This document shows positions 20,043-30,221 of a stretch of 32,716 nt of DNA, one piece after another. The notes under the pieces were generated by a model. It searched no databases. It was not told where the DNA came from and worked only from the letters and a program-made list of their open reading frames with translations. Positions within the stretch are counted from its first letter, which is position 1, and each line of letters opens with the position of its first letter. The DNA is from Atribacterota bacterium. GTDB lineage: Bacteria > Atribacterota > Phoenicimicrobiia > Phoenicimicrobiales > Stramentimicrobiaceae. The position numbers and the translations under genes are program-made. Location: the NCBI GenBank assembly GCA_028717805.1, contig JAQUNC010000027.1, positions 1-32,716 of the forward strand. The letters run 5' to 3'.

Positions 20043-20885
20043 TTAATTTACTGAATCATCATTGTAAGATTGAGGCAATAACTCTCCTTGAGCAATCATT
20101 TTTACTTCGCCAGTCAATGAAATATTTTTAATTACATTTTTATCTCTAATAAAATAAACTCCCAAACAACCACCTTTTGTTCTAACAATAAAAGGTGGTT
20201 GTCTATCCTTATCCAATGAGTATACAAGGGCACTGGATAAGGACCCAGTTCCGCACGATAAAGTAATTTCTTCTACTCCTCTTTCATATGTTCTCACAAA
20301 TAAGTTTCTTTCGTTCTCAATCTGAACAAAATTCACATTTACACCTTCAGGAAAATGTTCTTTATCAAATCTGATTTTTCTACCCAGGCTAAAAAGATAT
20401 TCATCCGATAAGTCTTCTCCAAAAAAAATCACACAATGGGGCACTCCTAAAAAAAGATAAGTATAAATAAAATCTTTACCATCAATGGTAATGGGTTTAT
20501 TCCTTATTATTTTCTCAACATTAACATCAGGCAATGTAACCTCAACATATTGATCTCTAACGTTTGCACATATTTTACCGGCAAGCGTTTCAAAAACAAT
20601 TTCCTTATTTGCTATTCCTTCTAAAAAAGCATATTTGGCAATACATCTCGCGCCATTTCCACACATTTCACCTTCTGTGCCATCAGAATTGAACAATCTC
20701 ATTTTAAAATCATATTGCAAAGAATTTTCCAATAATAGAAGGCCATCAGCACCTAAGGATTCCTTTCTTTTGCATATTTTATTTGCCAAGTCACTAATAT
20801 CTTTTTCAGGTATTATTTTCTTACGATTATCAATAACTATAAAGTCGTTTCCACAACCATTCATTTTTATAAAATGTATTCCCAT
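20043..20885 (-). CDS. dapF: Diaminopimelate epimerase
   Basis: A PLP-independent epimerase that interconverts LL- and meso-diaminopimelate for peptidoglycan and lysine synthesis. At 280 residues it is standard length. Both catalytic cysteines are present: C75 in EMCGNGARC and C211 in LSCGTGS. The N-terminal KMNGCGNDF and the internal FEMPEG-like segment (here HFPEGVNVNF) also fit. The ATG has AAGGGG close upstream. It lies 131 bp downstream of the diaminopimelate-dehydrogenase-like gene. The pair could cooperate around meso-DAP, or DapF could be acting on another diamino acid in the neighbouring gene set. The first reading is the conservative one. Confidence 0.95.
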   Translation of the reverse strand: MGIHFIKMNGCGNDFIVIDNRKKIIPEKDISDLANKICKRKESLGADGLLLLENSLQYDFKMRLFNSDGTEGEMCGNGARCIAKYAFLEGIANKEIVFETLAGKICANVRDQYVEVTLPDVNVEKIIRNKPITIDGKDFIYTYLFLGVPHCVIFFGEDLSDEYLFSLGRKIRFDKEHFPEGVNVNFVQIENERNLFVRTYERGVEEITLSCGTGSLSSALVYSLDKDRQPPFIVRTKGGCLGVYFIRDKNVIKNISLTGEVKMIAQGELLPQSYNDDSVN

Positions 20886-21016: not shown

Positions 21017-21925
21017 CTATATTAGTCGTGACAATATCTCTTCTTTTTTTCCATAAAGAAAGTCTAGAAGTGGAATTTCCAATATACTATAACAGCCGGG
21101 TTTTTGCTTCAGACTTGCTCTTGCTGCTGAAACCATTACTTGCCCTGTTACCGCTGGATTATTGACTGATACGGTGTATTGCATTCTTTGATTATGAGTT
21201 TTACCTGAAACTCCTTTTCTTTCTATCTTAACTGAATGACCCATATCGATTAGATCTCTTATATTATCTGATTTAAAAACATACACTTCATCATGAATGA
21301 AATATGGATCATTCTTTATCTTATTTGAAATACTTTCCAAATCATATCCTTTTTTCGGCTTAACATATACCAGCCGCTGATGCATACCTACATTCTTGGG
21401 AATAGTTAACGAGATGGCATCATCTACTCCCTCAATAGCTTTAACAGCAACTGTATGCCCCATACTCATGCCAGGACCATAATTTATATAGGTAATACCC
21501 TTAGGAGTATTAATTTCTAAAACAGCCCTTATAATAGAATCGCTTCCGGGATCCCAACCTGCTGAAATAATGGAGACGGCACTATATTTTCTTGCCACTT
21601 TGCCTAAGTCTTCTCGTAGTTGCATAAGGGATTCTCCATGAATATCAAAAGCATCTACCGTATTGATACCTTGTTGTAGGTATATGGGAGCAATTTCAGG
21701 TACTTTTCTACTATCAATTGATAGAATTGCCACATCTACTTTACCTAATTCTGTAATATCATTATCTATAATTGGTATATTTTTAATCTCTTCTTTGATT
21801 GTTTTAATAATATGCGGCAATTCAATTATTCCGACTACTTCCATATCTGGACTCTCTTGTAGAGCATCCAGAACTCCTCTTCCTACATGACCAAATCCTA
21901 CTATGATTACTTTGAATTTATACAA
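21017..21925 (-). CDS. ddh: meso-Diaminopimelate D-dehydrogenase-like oxidoreductase
   Basis: An NADP-type Rossmann enzyme. The nucleotide loop is VIIVGFGHVGRG near the N-terminus. Substrate-domain signatures of DAP dehydrogenase follow: SAGWDPGSDSIIR and NYGPGMSMGHTVA. These enzymes reversibly deaminate the D-centre of meso-DAP; some (type II) accept other D-amino acids. An upstream GTG at 21982 would add 19 hydrophobic residues, but AGGAGG lies 7 nt before TTG at 21923-21925, so I choose that start. It gives about 302 residues, normal for the family. It follows the desulfhydrase-like gene directly, in the liv-linked operon. It may provide meso-DAP or serve amino-acid catabolism. Relatives such as 2,4-diaminopentanoate dehydrogenase cannot be fully excluded. 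Confidence 0.82.
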   Translation of the reverse strand: MYKFKVIIVGFGHVGRGVLDALQESPDMEVVGIIELPHIIKTIKEEIKNIPIIDNDITELGKVDVAILSIDSRKVPEIAPIYLQQGINTVDAFDIHGESLMQLREDLGKVARKYSAVSIISAGWDPGSDSIIRAVLEINTPKGITYINYGPGMSMGHTVAVKAIEGVDDAISLTIPKNVGMHQRLVYVKPKKGYDLESISNKIKNDPYFIHDEVYVFKSDNIRDLIDMGHSVKIERKGVSGKTHNQRMQYTVSVNNPAVTGQVMVSAARASLKQKPGCYSILEIPLLDFLYGKKEEILSRLI

Positions 21926-21981
21926 TTTAATTCCTCCTGCTACATAATTTAGAATTATAATCAATAGAATTTTTATTCTCA

Positions 21982-23001
21982 CTATGAAAATATTTTATTA
22001 TATGCAAAATTTGCAATTTCTCCACCAGTATGAAGAAACACTATATTTTCATTTTTCTTAAATTTACCTTTTTTAATTAAATCAATCAATCCGGCCATTG
22101 CTTTTCCGGTATAAACAGGATCAAGTATTACCCCTTCAGCTTGAGCTACAGTATGTATTGCCTGGATGCCCTCTTTTGTTGGAATAGCATAACCTTCTCC
22201 AATATAATCATCATTCACTTCTATTTCATCAGGATAAAATTGTCTGCATGCTAATCCTGGTGCAAAATCTTGTATAGTTTTGTTGCATAACTCAGCAATT
22301 TCTTGAGATTTTGGTTTTATATGTCGACTGATACTAATCCCAAAACATCTGGTATGCATTCTATATAGTCTTAATCCTAATTCTATTCCCACCTGAGTAC
22401 CACCAGTTCCGACTGCTGTAATAATATAATCGATATGAATACCACCTTCTTCAGTTTGTTGCTTTAATTCTTTGACCGCATTGATATAGCCCAGGTTCCC
22501 CATTGGATTACAACCACCTAAAGGTATAATATATGGAATTTTGCCATTCCTTCTTACCTCTTCTGCTATTTCACCCGTAATTGGTGTCTCTCCTGTTTCT
22601 TCTTTCTGTTCATCCTCATCAGAATAAGGTTTAAATCTTATATCACAACCTAAGATGGAATCTAAAAGTAAGTTACCTTGATATTCTCCCGGTTCATTTC
22701 CATTAAGCACCAAAATAACCCCCAATCCCAGTTTTTTAGCAGCCGCAGCAGTTTGCCTTGCCCAATTAGATTGAAGTCCTCCAATGGTGACAATGGTGTC
22801 TGCTTTTTTTTCTAACATATCAGCAATAATATATTCAAGCTTTCTTGCCTTGTTACCTCCAAAGGCAAGCCCAGTACAATTATCTCTTTTAATATATATA
22901 TTAGGTCCTTTGAGCATTTCAGTAAGATTTTTAGCAAGTTCTAATGGAGTTGGCAGGATAGCTAATGGAATTCTTTTATATTTTTTTATGAAATCCATCA
23001 T
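21982..23001 (-). CDS. dcyD: D-cysteine desulfhydrase / ACC deaminase family PLP enzyme
   Basis: A 339-residue fold-type II PLP enzyme. The Schiff-base lysine is K51 in FGGNKARKLEY, and GGLQSNWARQTAAAA (74-88) carries the phosphate and substrate loop with S78. GTGGTQ at 199-204 cups the cofactor phosphate. In true ACC deaminases two active-site positions are Glu and Leu; here the matching positions are T298 (DPVYTGK) and T325 (FLHTGG). That favours a D-cysteine-desulfhydrase-like activity over ACC deaminase. A related beta-elimination of another D-amino acid is also possible. The start has GGAGGAG upstream. It sits 29 bp after livF and directly before the DAP-dehydrogenase-like gene, so it is probably co-transcribed with the importer. 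Substrate is inferred, not proven. Confidence 0.83.
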   Translation of the reverse strand: MMDFIKKYKRIPLAILPTPLELAKNLTEMLKGPNIYIKRDNCTGLAFGGNKARKLEYIIADMLEKKADTIVTIGGLQSNWARQTAAAAKKLGLGVILVLNGNEPGEYQGNLLLDSILGCDIRFKPYSDEDEQKEETGETPITGEIAEEVRRNGKIPYIIPLGGCNPMGNLGYINAVKELKQQTEEGGIHIDYIITAVGTGGTQVGIELGLRLYRMHTRCFGISISRHIKPKSQEIAELCNKTIQDFAPGLACRQFYPDEIEVNDDYIGEGYAIPTKEGIQAIHTVAQAEGVILDPVYTGKAMAGLIDLIKKGKFKKNENIVFLHTGGEIANFAYNKIFS

Positions 23002-28165: not shown

Positions 28166-29002
28166 TTAATTTTTAATATTGTTTGTATTACTGCAAGTAA
28201 AATATAATATGCCACTTACTATAATTATTATCGAACCTATGATTGATAACAAATCTGACATAACTCCAAGACAGGCAAATTCTAACATTGCAGCAAAGAC
28301 AATCTGGGTATAAAGGTATGGTGCTACCATATTTGCTGGCGCAAATCGATAGGCCAGTGTTAAACCAATTTGGGAACCAATAGCAGCAAAACCTAAAATT
28401 AATAGGAGAATTAAATCCCAAAGACCAGGTATTACAAAATTACCCTGCCACAACAGTAAAATAATTGCCATTATTCCAGTAATATAAGCATAATAATTAA
28501 TAATAACCCAATAGTCATCACTCAGACGAAGATACCTTATTATTATATGAGCAGTACCCATTAATATTGCCGAAATTATAGCAAGAACTGCTGGAAATAT
28601 ATCGGTTCTAAAACCAGGCTTAATAACAAATAAAGCACCAATAAAAGCCAGTAAAATAAGAGGAATTTGTTTAAGATTATACTTTTCTTTAAGAAAAATA
28701 ATTGACATAATTATAATAAAAAATGGGCTTAGACGTTGAATAGTAATTGAATCCGTTATTGGCATTTTGGTATAAGTATAAAACATTGCAGTCACACCTA
28801 ATGCTCCAAGAAATCCTCTTAAAAATAGTAATGGTTTATTTCTACCCAATATTGGTGTTTCTTTTTTCATTAATATAATTATTGGAATAATTATCATGGA
28901 TGGGATATTTCTAAATAAAACTATCTCCATCAAAGGAATATTTTTTAATAATTTAATAATAAATGCAATAAGAGCAAAAAAGAAAGCAGCTATAATCATC
29001 AA
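28166..29002 (-). CDS. EamA/DMT-family membrane transporter
   Basis: A 278-residue polytopic membrane protein with about ten hydrophobic segments in two EamA repeats. The first repeat begins IIAAFFFALIAFIIKLLK and contains LFRNIPSMIIIPII and PITDSITIQRLSPFFIIIMSI with FLKEKYNLKQ. The second contains LRLSDDYWVIINYY and LTLAYRFAPANMVAPYLYTQ. Members export amino acids, nucleosides or other metabolites. The start is uncertain: TTG at 29002 or the next ATG, with an in-frame hydrophobic lead (NYKLGILL) upstream lacking a standard start. A G-run that could be a ribosome site lies about 30 nt further up. It follows the P-loop gene by 106 bp and may export or exchange a product of the aminomutase pathway, which is inference. 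Confidence 0.83.
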   Translation of the reverse strand: MMIIAAFFFALIAFIIKLLKNIPLMEIVLFRNIPSMIIIPIIILMKKETPILGRNKPLLFLRGFLGALGVTAMFYTYTKMPITDSITIQRLSPFFIIIMSIIFLKEKYNLKQIPLILLAFIGALFVIKPGFRTDIFPAVLAIISAILMGTAHIIIRYLRLSDDYWVIINYYAYITGIMAIILLLWQGNFVIPGLWDLILLLILGFAAIGSQIGLTLAYRFAPANMVAPYLYTQIVFAAMLEFACLGVMSDLLSIIGSIIIIVSGILYFTCSNTNNIKN

Positions 29003-29108: not shown

Positions 29109-30221
29109 TCATTTATTAATATTTAAAAATTTTTTTATAACGATTACCAATTCGGGGCTTTCTTCTCCCATAATATTTATTATGGGAAGAGCTAATCTAT
29201 TTCTCATTTTCTGATATAACTGGTATCCATCTATCCAAGCCATTTCATAACTGTCTTTTCCAAATCTGCTATATTTTGGATAAAAGGGATTAATGGTAAC
29301 TGCTAAAATTGGTAAATTATAAAGTGTCTTGATTTTGATTCCCTTGTTTAATATATCCTCAATTATATCCATAAGATGGTTAATATCTCGGGTACCGACT
29401 AACAGAAAAGTAGGATTATTAACAAGGATTGTCTTTCCTTTAAACAATTCAGAGTATTGCTCAGATATTTTTTTTAATATATTATCCTGAAAAATACCTG
29501 GAATATATATTTCTTCTGTTTCTTTTTCATCAATACTATCAATTAAATTGCTAAGCGTTTTTTGACTAATCAAAGAATGGCTTTTCAGCTGTCTTTTATA
29601 TCCATTTTTCTGGAAAATGACAATATTATTATGATGCTGTATTATTTCTTGATTAGAAATCTTTTGTTTCTCCCTCAGTGGTATATTAAATGCTCTTATT
29701 ATACTTTCTGTTTCATCTACAAGTAAATCAATATCAGTTTGACGAGAGGCTCCGGTTGCTAAGATTAATGCATCACAATTAATCAATGGTATCATTCGGT
29801 TTAATGCCCCGTCAACCAGAATAAGTTGGCTTTTTTCTTTCTTCAATTTTTGCAGGATGCAAAGAAGATCTTTACCTTTATTTGGACCTGCTAATATAAC
29901 TAATCCTCCTTGTAATACTTTCCCTATTAGCACTTGTCCCAGGGATGTTTTAACTGATGTTTTTTCAACTATTTCAATTTTCGCCTCAGAAACAGAAAAG
30001 CATTGTTTAGCAGTTCCTACCAGGTCCCCTTGTTTAACATAAATACGGGGTTTGGGTAATCCGGTAATATTATCTATATCCTCTCCATCATAACCAATAC
30101 TGGTTAAACCTACTTTAATTCCTTCTTTATTTGACCATTCTAATAAATAGCTCGCAGTTGTAGTTTTTCCAGTATTTTTAGCAGTGCCCAGTATTCCAAT
30201 TACTTTACTATTAATCTCCAT
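29109..30221 (-). CDS. P-loop NTPase, possible aminomutase reactivating factor (KamB-like)
   Basis: A 370-residue protein. The P-loop GTAKNTGKTT (12-21) has the same spacing as in dethiobiotin-synthetase-like SIMIBI ATPases, and a Walker B-like LILVDGALNR lies at 133-142. A motif SIGYDGEDID (41-50) could hold the metal-binding acidic residues. The rest, from about 185, is not recognised. It starts 11 bp after the aminomutase stop, so the two are made together. Cobalamin aminomutases and mutases commonly travel with ATP- or GTP-dependent reactivases. From memory, KamB of the lysine 5,6-aminomutase cluster has a similar GxAKNxGKT loop, which I cannot verify here. Its usual MutS-like partner KamC is not in the window. 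The NTPase call is firm, the role tentative. Confidence 0.6.
   Translation of the reverse strand: MEINSKVIGILGTAKNTGKTTTASYLLEWSNKEGIKVGLTSIGYDGEDIDNITGLPKPRIYVKQGDLVGTAKQCFSVSEAKIEIVEKTSVKTSLGQVLIGKVLQGGLVILAGPNKGKDLLCILQKLKKEKSQLILVDGALNRMIPLINCDALILATGASRQTDIDLLVDETESIIRAFNIPLREKQKISNQEIIQHHNNIVIFQKNGYKRQLKSHSLISQKTLSNLIDSIDEKETEEIYIPGIFQDNILKKISEQYSELFKGKTILVNNPTFLLVGTRDINHLMDIIEDILNKGIKIKTLYNLPILAVTINPFYPKYSRFGKDSYEMAWIDGYQLYQKMRNRLALPIINIMGEESPELVIVIKKFLNINK

Follow-up and report, generated by a model that had tools for sequence, protein, structure and literature searches.

A KamB-family P-loop NTPase encoded directly after a B12 enzyme of the lysine-aminomutase fold: a candidate reactivase without KamC

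What does a P-loop protein do for the B12 enzyme whose gene lies immediately before its own, and might it act without a partner? To our knowledge, the repair of B12 radical enzymes is poorly understood beyond a few systems, such as those of diol dehydratase and methylmalonyl-CoA mutase, and the locus analyzed here raises this question in a member of the Atribacterota. The window, i.e., the whole stretch of DNA that was analyzed (32,716 bases), is one entire contig (G000:C27), and the minus strand of its right end encodes, one after another, a small ORF, the B12 enzyme and the KamB-family P-loop protein (Table 1). The first-pass annotation, which gave no strand, had described the last of these genes as an ORF starting 11 bp after the enzyme gene and carrying the loop GTAKNTGKTT. 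All of this was confirmed: the gap is 11 bp, the loop occupies residues 12-21, with the Walker A motif GTAKNTGKT at residues 12-20, and the plus-strand reading of the interval is full of stops. Full-length homologs with 66-68% identity lie directly 3' of the same enzyme in three more genomes of the same family, and the gene is therefore not a product of chance. A scan of one genome for each of 84,980 named species yielded 117 confirmed relatives of the enzyme, the best 80 of which were kept with their loci; within these best 80 of 117 loci, G[T/I]AKNTGKT is found in 59 of 61 KamB matches, and the two others are fragments of a single gene lying at the end of a locus. Following KamB in the 3' direction on the same strand are the genes of an EamA transporter, a branched-chain amino acid ABC transporter, a PLP enzyme resembling D-cysteate lyase/D-cysteine desulfhydrase, diaminopimelate dehydrogenase and diaminopimelate epimerase. 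What is probably the same EamA protein starts at the equivalent place in one relative (L010:6592-6849).

Table 1. Coordinates of the window features considered in this study.
Feature	Position	Strand	Basis or remark
Predicted reactivase or chaperone of the B12 enzyme (KamB-family P-loop NTPase, 370 aa)	29109..30221	(-)	ATG at 30221, stop at 29109; KamB profile, predicted fold, invariant residues
B12 enzyme (client mutase), 616 aa	30233..32083	(-)	Pfam B12-binding domain, structure match, profile alignment
Small subunit, 82 aa	32111..32359	(-)	With the mutase in 77/80 loci (best 80 of 117); weak likeness to KamE OAM_dimer
EamA-type transporter	28166..29002	(-)	Directly 3' of the KamB gene; TTG start as listed
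Diaminopimelate epimerase family (DapF)	20043..20885	(-)	Adjoins the mutase in 5/80 loci (best 80 of 117)
Diaminopimelate dehydrogenase family (DAP-DH)	21017..21982	(-)	Adjoins the mutase in 5/80 loci (best 80 of 117)

The earlier guess that the protein might be related to KamB is borne out by its score of 252.5 bits against the NCBIfam equivalog model NF052386 (KamB; cut-off 210), with residues 8-323 aligned on profile positions 1-308 of 326, and the protein is the only KamB match in its own genome. The same model places some KamB proteins of this group under its cut-off (201.8 and 150.9 bits). Pfam returned only sub-threshold P-loop matches, and a sequence search of the PDB gave nothing better than E 0.38. 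The AlphaFold2 model, which was made from 44 aligned sequences, reached a pLDDT of 92.7; Foldseek detected no match to it in the PDB at E 0.001 or better, while VIA-align listed dethiobiotin synthetase (Z 13.8 over 182 residues, 3.3 Å), HypB (12.9), MobB (12.8) and MeaB/MMAA (12.0-12.4) near the top, with scores that hardly differ and alignments that extend over about half of the protein. The KamB-family protein is thereby predicted to be a SIMIBI P-loop NTPase with these four as its nearest folds, which agrees with the likeness to dethiobiotin synthetase remarked in the first-pass annotation. It would share the nucleotide-binding core fold with dethiobiotin synthetase and MobB, and its GTxxxxGKT-type loop is one that we take to be common to dethiobiotin synthetase as well. 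A match to MobB or to a biotin-pathway enzyme, which would have pointed to an unrelated function, was looked for and was not found: the Pfam MobB model gives 14.7 bits (cut-off 26.6), the scores for biotin-pathway enzymes and Met_asp_mut_E are under their cut-offs, and no biotin or molybdopterin gene occurs among the window genes scanned. The profile comparison proposed earlier likewise left KamB as the family over its cut-off, since neither a MeaB nor a G3E Pfam model matched at E up to 1 and no model of the DdrA-type diol-dehydratase reactivases was among the Pfam and NCBIfam matches at E up to 1, the predicted fold of the KamB protein being instead that of P-loop SIMIBI proteins.

The invariant columns of the family comprise Walker A, T40, I42, G43, D45, G46, E47, D137-G138 (placed after a beta strand), R142, G157-A158 and N311-P312. 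In the KamB-family tree, a single change parts this group from 14 other KamB-family rows (support 57/95, a rough value from a bootstrap that had not settled), and the rows come from Bacillota, Atribacterota, Thermotogota, Chloroflexota, Spirochaetota, Thermodesulfobacteriota and Delongiibacteriota, plus one unassigned bacterium. Like KamB of lysine-fermentation clusters (NF052386), with which it is homologous over nearly its whole length and shares the KN[T/A]GKT-type loop, the protein adjoins a B12 enzyme of aminomutase fold, but that enzyme is a different one, and the operon is without KamC, KamD and KamE. Since the score is reached outside the setting of KamC, KamD and KamE, we regard the protein as a KamB homolog and not as KamB of lysine 5,6-aminomutase, and the name “lysine 5,6-aminomutase reactivase KamB” should be used with caution because it fits, by score, proteins of another system. 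Other KamB-family proteins with no adjoining KamC were also observed (L149:8257-9252, L150:7464-8504 and L155:8329-9171), two of them directly 3' of a KamA-like gene and one with no recognized kam gene nearby, as named by eye. A KamB at L011:5833-6666 (genome G011) is devoid of the first ~90 residues and of the P-loop; it adjoins genes resembling 2-oxoacid:ferredoxin oxidoreductase, in a genome with no full-length mutase match.

The linkage of KamB to the B12 enzyme, whose absence would have counted against the annotation, proved to be strongly conserved. Among the best 80 of 117 loci, KamB is encoded directly after the enzyme in 52 and elsewhere in the locus in 7, and is thus present in 59; in all 52 directly adjoining cases its P-loop codon lies 13-92 nt past the mutase stop. 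Fourteen of the 21 loci that lack KamB, again among the best 80, belong to genomes with KamB elsewhere and 7 to genomes without it, so that 73 of the 80 loci are in genomes with a KamB. The full-length enzyme was found in 4 of 50 genomes of the phylum, with KamB directly 3' in all four. The gene-neighborhood statistics called for earlier point the same way: across 386 genomes, KamB is present in 6/8 with the mutase (four of these eight being from one family) versus 11/378 without it (one-sided Fisher p 7e-8), and outside the phylum in 2/4 versus 10/332 (p 0.007). The seven loci of the best 80 in whose genomes no KamB match was found at 1e-10 (L109, L118, L119, L121, L122, L124 and L126) come from two Paenibacillus, four Verrucomicrobia/Limisphaerales and one UBP4, and such KamB-less mutases fall into two or more distinct places on a quick mutase tree; because G315 and the genome of L119 are apparently one record, the nine KamB-less rows probably stand for eight genomes. 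These seven loci indicate that KamB is not always needed by homologous mutases. The EamA and branched-chain transporter genes were considered as a defining neighborhood and rejected, as they do not belong to the gene clusters that recur in the best 80 of 117 loci, and no EamA relative was detected in these loci at E 1e-15. A search of plasmids with the enzyme gave no match.

The client enzyme had been labeled an aminomutase, and this label is supported for its fold but not in the sense of an ordinary PLP aminomutase. Its model (pLDDT 91.4) best matches the alpha subunit of lysine 5,6-aminomutase (8t0v_A; Z 32.7, 384 residues, 3.1 Å), followed by glutamate mutase (Z 26.7) and ornithine aminomutase (Z 26.4), and hhalign to KamD plus OraE covers residues 139 to 616 (global, 97.2%, E 8.5e-11). 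Its B12 domain and TIM barrel are both homologous to those of lysine 5,6-aminomutase (KamDE) and ornithine 4,5-aminomutase (OraSE), but here the B12 domain (Pfam, 39.1 bits, cut-off 32.1; motif DPxHDx[G/A]) is fused at the N terminus of the barrel, and the dimerization domain of KamE seems to survive as the separate 82-aa protein. The likeness on which the latter view rests is weak: 70% and E 4e-5 in local hhalign, a poor 7.6% in global alignment, and E 0.022, under the cut-off, for one member with Pfam OAM_dimer. The PLP site, in contrast, is not conserved. We mapped the PLP contacts of lysine 5,6-aminomutase that are given in PMC3958899. Residues R184, G187, Q188, S189, S238, R268 and N299 of that enzyme are invariant in five KamD and five OraE proteins, and aligned with them in the client are, respectively, D304, W307, G308, A309, R352, G/A382 and L415, nearly all of which show no variation across 48 members of the family. 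Three alignments give the same result for R184, S238, Y263 and R268, while one of them puts G187, Q188, S189 and N299 in a gap. The stacking tyrosine Y263, which corresponds to Y377, is the sole listed contact that is kept (48/48). The Schiff-base lysine at +11 from the axial histidine is present in 3/3 KamE and 5/5 OraE compared and is absent from the 616-aa protein and from the family rows examined, whose invariant lysines are K24 and K372. At the dAdo-binding glutamate E341, KamD and OraE themselves disagree in the alignment column. The replacement of most PLP contacts and the absence of the Schiff-base lysine favor a PLP-independent enzyme, which, judged from sequence, is more likely than a PLP aminomutase. 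That the client still depends on PLP, with a site rebuilt elsewhere, for example around the invariant K372, R352 and Y377, would suit its fold, the end-to-end profile alignment and the conserved stacking tyrosine, but it seems rather unlikely given the seven substitutions and the missing lysine.

Because the contig breaks off 357 bp beyond the start of the small ORF, the presence nearby of KamC, the MutS-like partner whose apparent absence had been pointed out from the sequence, was tested on the genome and the related loci. In each of the three loci where KamB scores highest, the order is KamB-KamC-KamD-KamE. A profile built from seven KamC proteins found KamC in none of the operons of the best 80 of 117 loci. 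Its only match in these loci, at L083, is a 651-aa MutS2-like protein on the opposite strand with 148.7 bits, while control matches scored 346-650 bits in six cases, five of them the model's own sequences, and 163 bits in one case at a contig end. The cut-off was passed in 4 of 44 whole genomes, i.e., two controls and two of the 41 mutase genomes (G412 and G417), each of the latter having, apart from the mutase locus, a canonical cluster that carries a KamB, KamC, KamD and KamE of its own. KamC-sized matches under the cut-off occur in two Thermotogota genomes, G241 and G386 (283 and 264 bits between them), and the genome of the window has no KamC over the cut-off. That a KamC gene is hidden beyond the upstream contig end was rejected in view of the KamC-free operons of relatives. 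Of the 41 genomes with the enzyme, 28, that of the window included, gave no KamD/OraE match, and all of these stay below the KamC cut-off. Many mutase genomes are accordingly free of any other lysine or ornithine aminomutase, and KamB has no known client there except the 616-aa enzyme.

According to PMC3958899, both known aminomutases undergo suicide inactivation, and MeaB and HypB are described as metalloenzyme chaperones in a review (PMC9164220). The reading that we favor, with a confidence only a little on the positive side, is that KamB is a single-protein, KamC-free reactivase that exchanges damaged cobalamin in a PLP-independent B12 mutase. The NTPase would be translated right after, and would serve, a mutase composed of the 616-aa and 82-aa proteins. 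When adenosylcobalamin is lost during turnover or becomes oxidized to cob(II/III)alamin, which is inactive, KamB might use the binding and hydrolysis of nucleotide to open the mutase, drive out the damaged cobalamin and admit intact adenosylcobalamin. Nucleotide hydrolysis would thus drive cofactor exchange in an adenosylcobalamin mutase working without PLP, and no other partner would be required, not even KamC, the MutS-like protein found with KamB in lysine-fermentation clusters. A reactivation function is suggested by the NCBIfam family name and by synteny; searches of open-licence PMC papers brought up none in which KamB was put to an experimental test as a reactivase of B12 enzymes. The proposal of the first-pass annotation that the protein is a reactivase is in these respects largely supported, with reactivation itself as its inferred part.

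Other roles of the KamB protein have to be weighed against this reading. A loading or gatekeeping chaperone like MeaB/MMAA, the G3E GTPase chaperones of methylmalonyl-CoA mutase, would deliver adenosylcobalamin and protect the enzyme with no repair of inactivated enzyme. The SIMIBI-type P-loop fold is common to both, the Z scores of 12.0 and 12.4 lie within 1-2 units of that of dethiobiotin synthetase, and PMC9164220 presents MeaB as a single protein helping an adenosylcobalamin mutase, with the cofactor not bound by MeaB itself. The KamB protein, however, has no sequence-profile match to the MeaB/MMAA models, and its kinship is with KamB, whose own role here is known by name only; we regard such a chaperone as rather improbable. 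It is distinctly less probable that KamB is the ordinary member of a two-component system in which an unlinked or housekeeping MutS-family protein plays the part of KamC. The MutS2/MutS-like proteins of the mutase genomes might stand in for KamC, given that MutS-family matches to its profile are present in 44/44 genomes searched, and the two Thermotogota matches are of KamC size, but KamC is encoded in none of the operons of the best 80 of 117 loci, and where its cut-off is reached in mutase genomes it stands in a lysine cluster elsewhere, which has a KamB of its own. A ligase or kinase that uses ATP in a metabolic pathway, comparable with dethiobiotin synthetase, would account for the best solved fold and the type of the loop, but the alignment takes in no more than about half of the protein, and the related KamB directly precedes KamC, KamD and KamE in the three best-scoring loci, which ties KamB to a B12 enzyme and not to one pathway; this is very unlikely.

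The operon around the reactivase candidate and its client spans at least seven phyla. In the best 80 of 117 loci, the small subunit is encoded in 77, a SelA/DgaE-like PLP enzyme in 65, KamB in 59, DUF6917 in 53, a GidA-like flavoprotein in 51, an FCD-type regulator in 44, RidA in 36, an unnamed transporter in 25, and DapF and diaminopimelate dehydrogenase in 5 each; the figure of 77 takes account of five loci that failed the “directly upstream” rule for the small subunit, in two of which (L086 and L092) the small ORF overlaps an over-long enzyme ORF. Among the recurrent genes of L048-L127, the SelA/DgaE-like enzyme is 488 aa in length and the FCD regulator has HTH_12. In a set of 15 genomes, the SelA/DgaE-like enzyme occurs in 8/8 with the mutase versus 0/7 without it, and DUF6917 in 8/8 versus 1/7. 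The genome of the window has both on another contig (C17), next to DapA-like, RidA-like and TRAP-like genes (the last two named by eye), and because the gene order of C17 is like that of relative G008, the two contigs may each hold half of a single cluster. The operon appears to be a catabolic one that acts on an imine-yielding amino acid. DapF and/or DAP-DH adjoin the mutase at window:20043-21982, L050, L052, L063, L069, L076, L114 and L117, which belong to Atribacterota, Thermotogota, Chloroflexota and one unassigned bacterium. Their recurrence is a hint of a diamino-dicarboxylic substrate; together with a weak Met_asp_mut_E match (E 0.12), it points to an amino dicarboxylic acid but proves nothing. 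Open-licence PMC papers searched for DUF6917 and for the mutase operon contained nothing on the operon.

If the pieces are put together, they might describe a widespread new class of adenosylcobalamin enzymes, with the lysine-aminomutase fold, rearranged domains and no PLP, as the core of an uncharacterized amino-acid catabolic operon (SelA/DgaE-like PLP enzyme, DUF6917, RidA, GidA-like flavoprotein and, in some cases, diaminopimelate epimerase and dehydrogenase) and maintained by a KamB reactivase that acts as one protein and without KamC, a broader picture that we offer tentatively and hold to be possible rather than probable. In a review, MutS-like proteins next to adenosylcobalamin enzymes figure as a proposal only (PMC9164220). 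The genetic separation of KamB from KamC, KamD and KamE in many genomes allows the role of KamB itself to be asked, with the KamB-less mutase genomes of Paenibacillus and Verrucomicrobia as natural controls, and if the client is PLP-free, the family bears on how rearrangement chemistry is split between B12 and PLP. Two minor observations concern the contig itself. Its end (window:32560-32716) is apparently richer in G+C, by eye, than the AT-rich surroundings and is possibly a repeat that stopped the assembly, and an ORF at window:2127-2771 has a DUF772 transposase domain.
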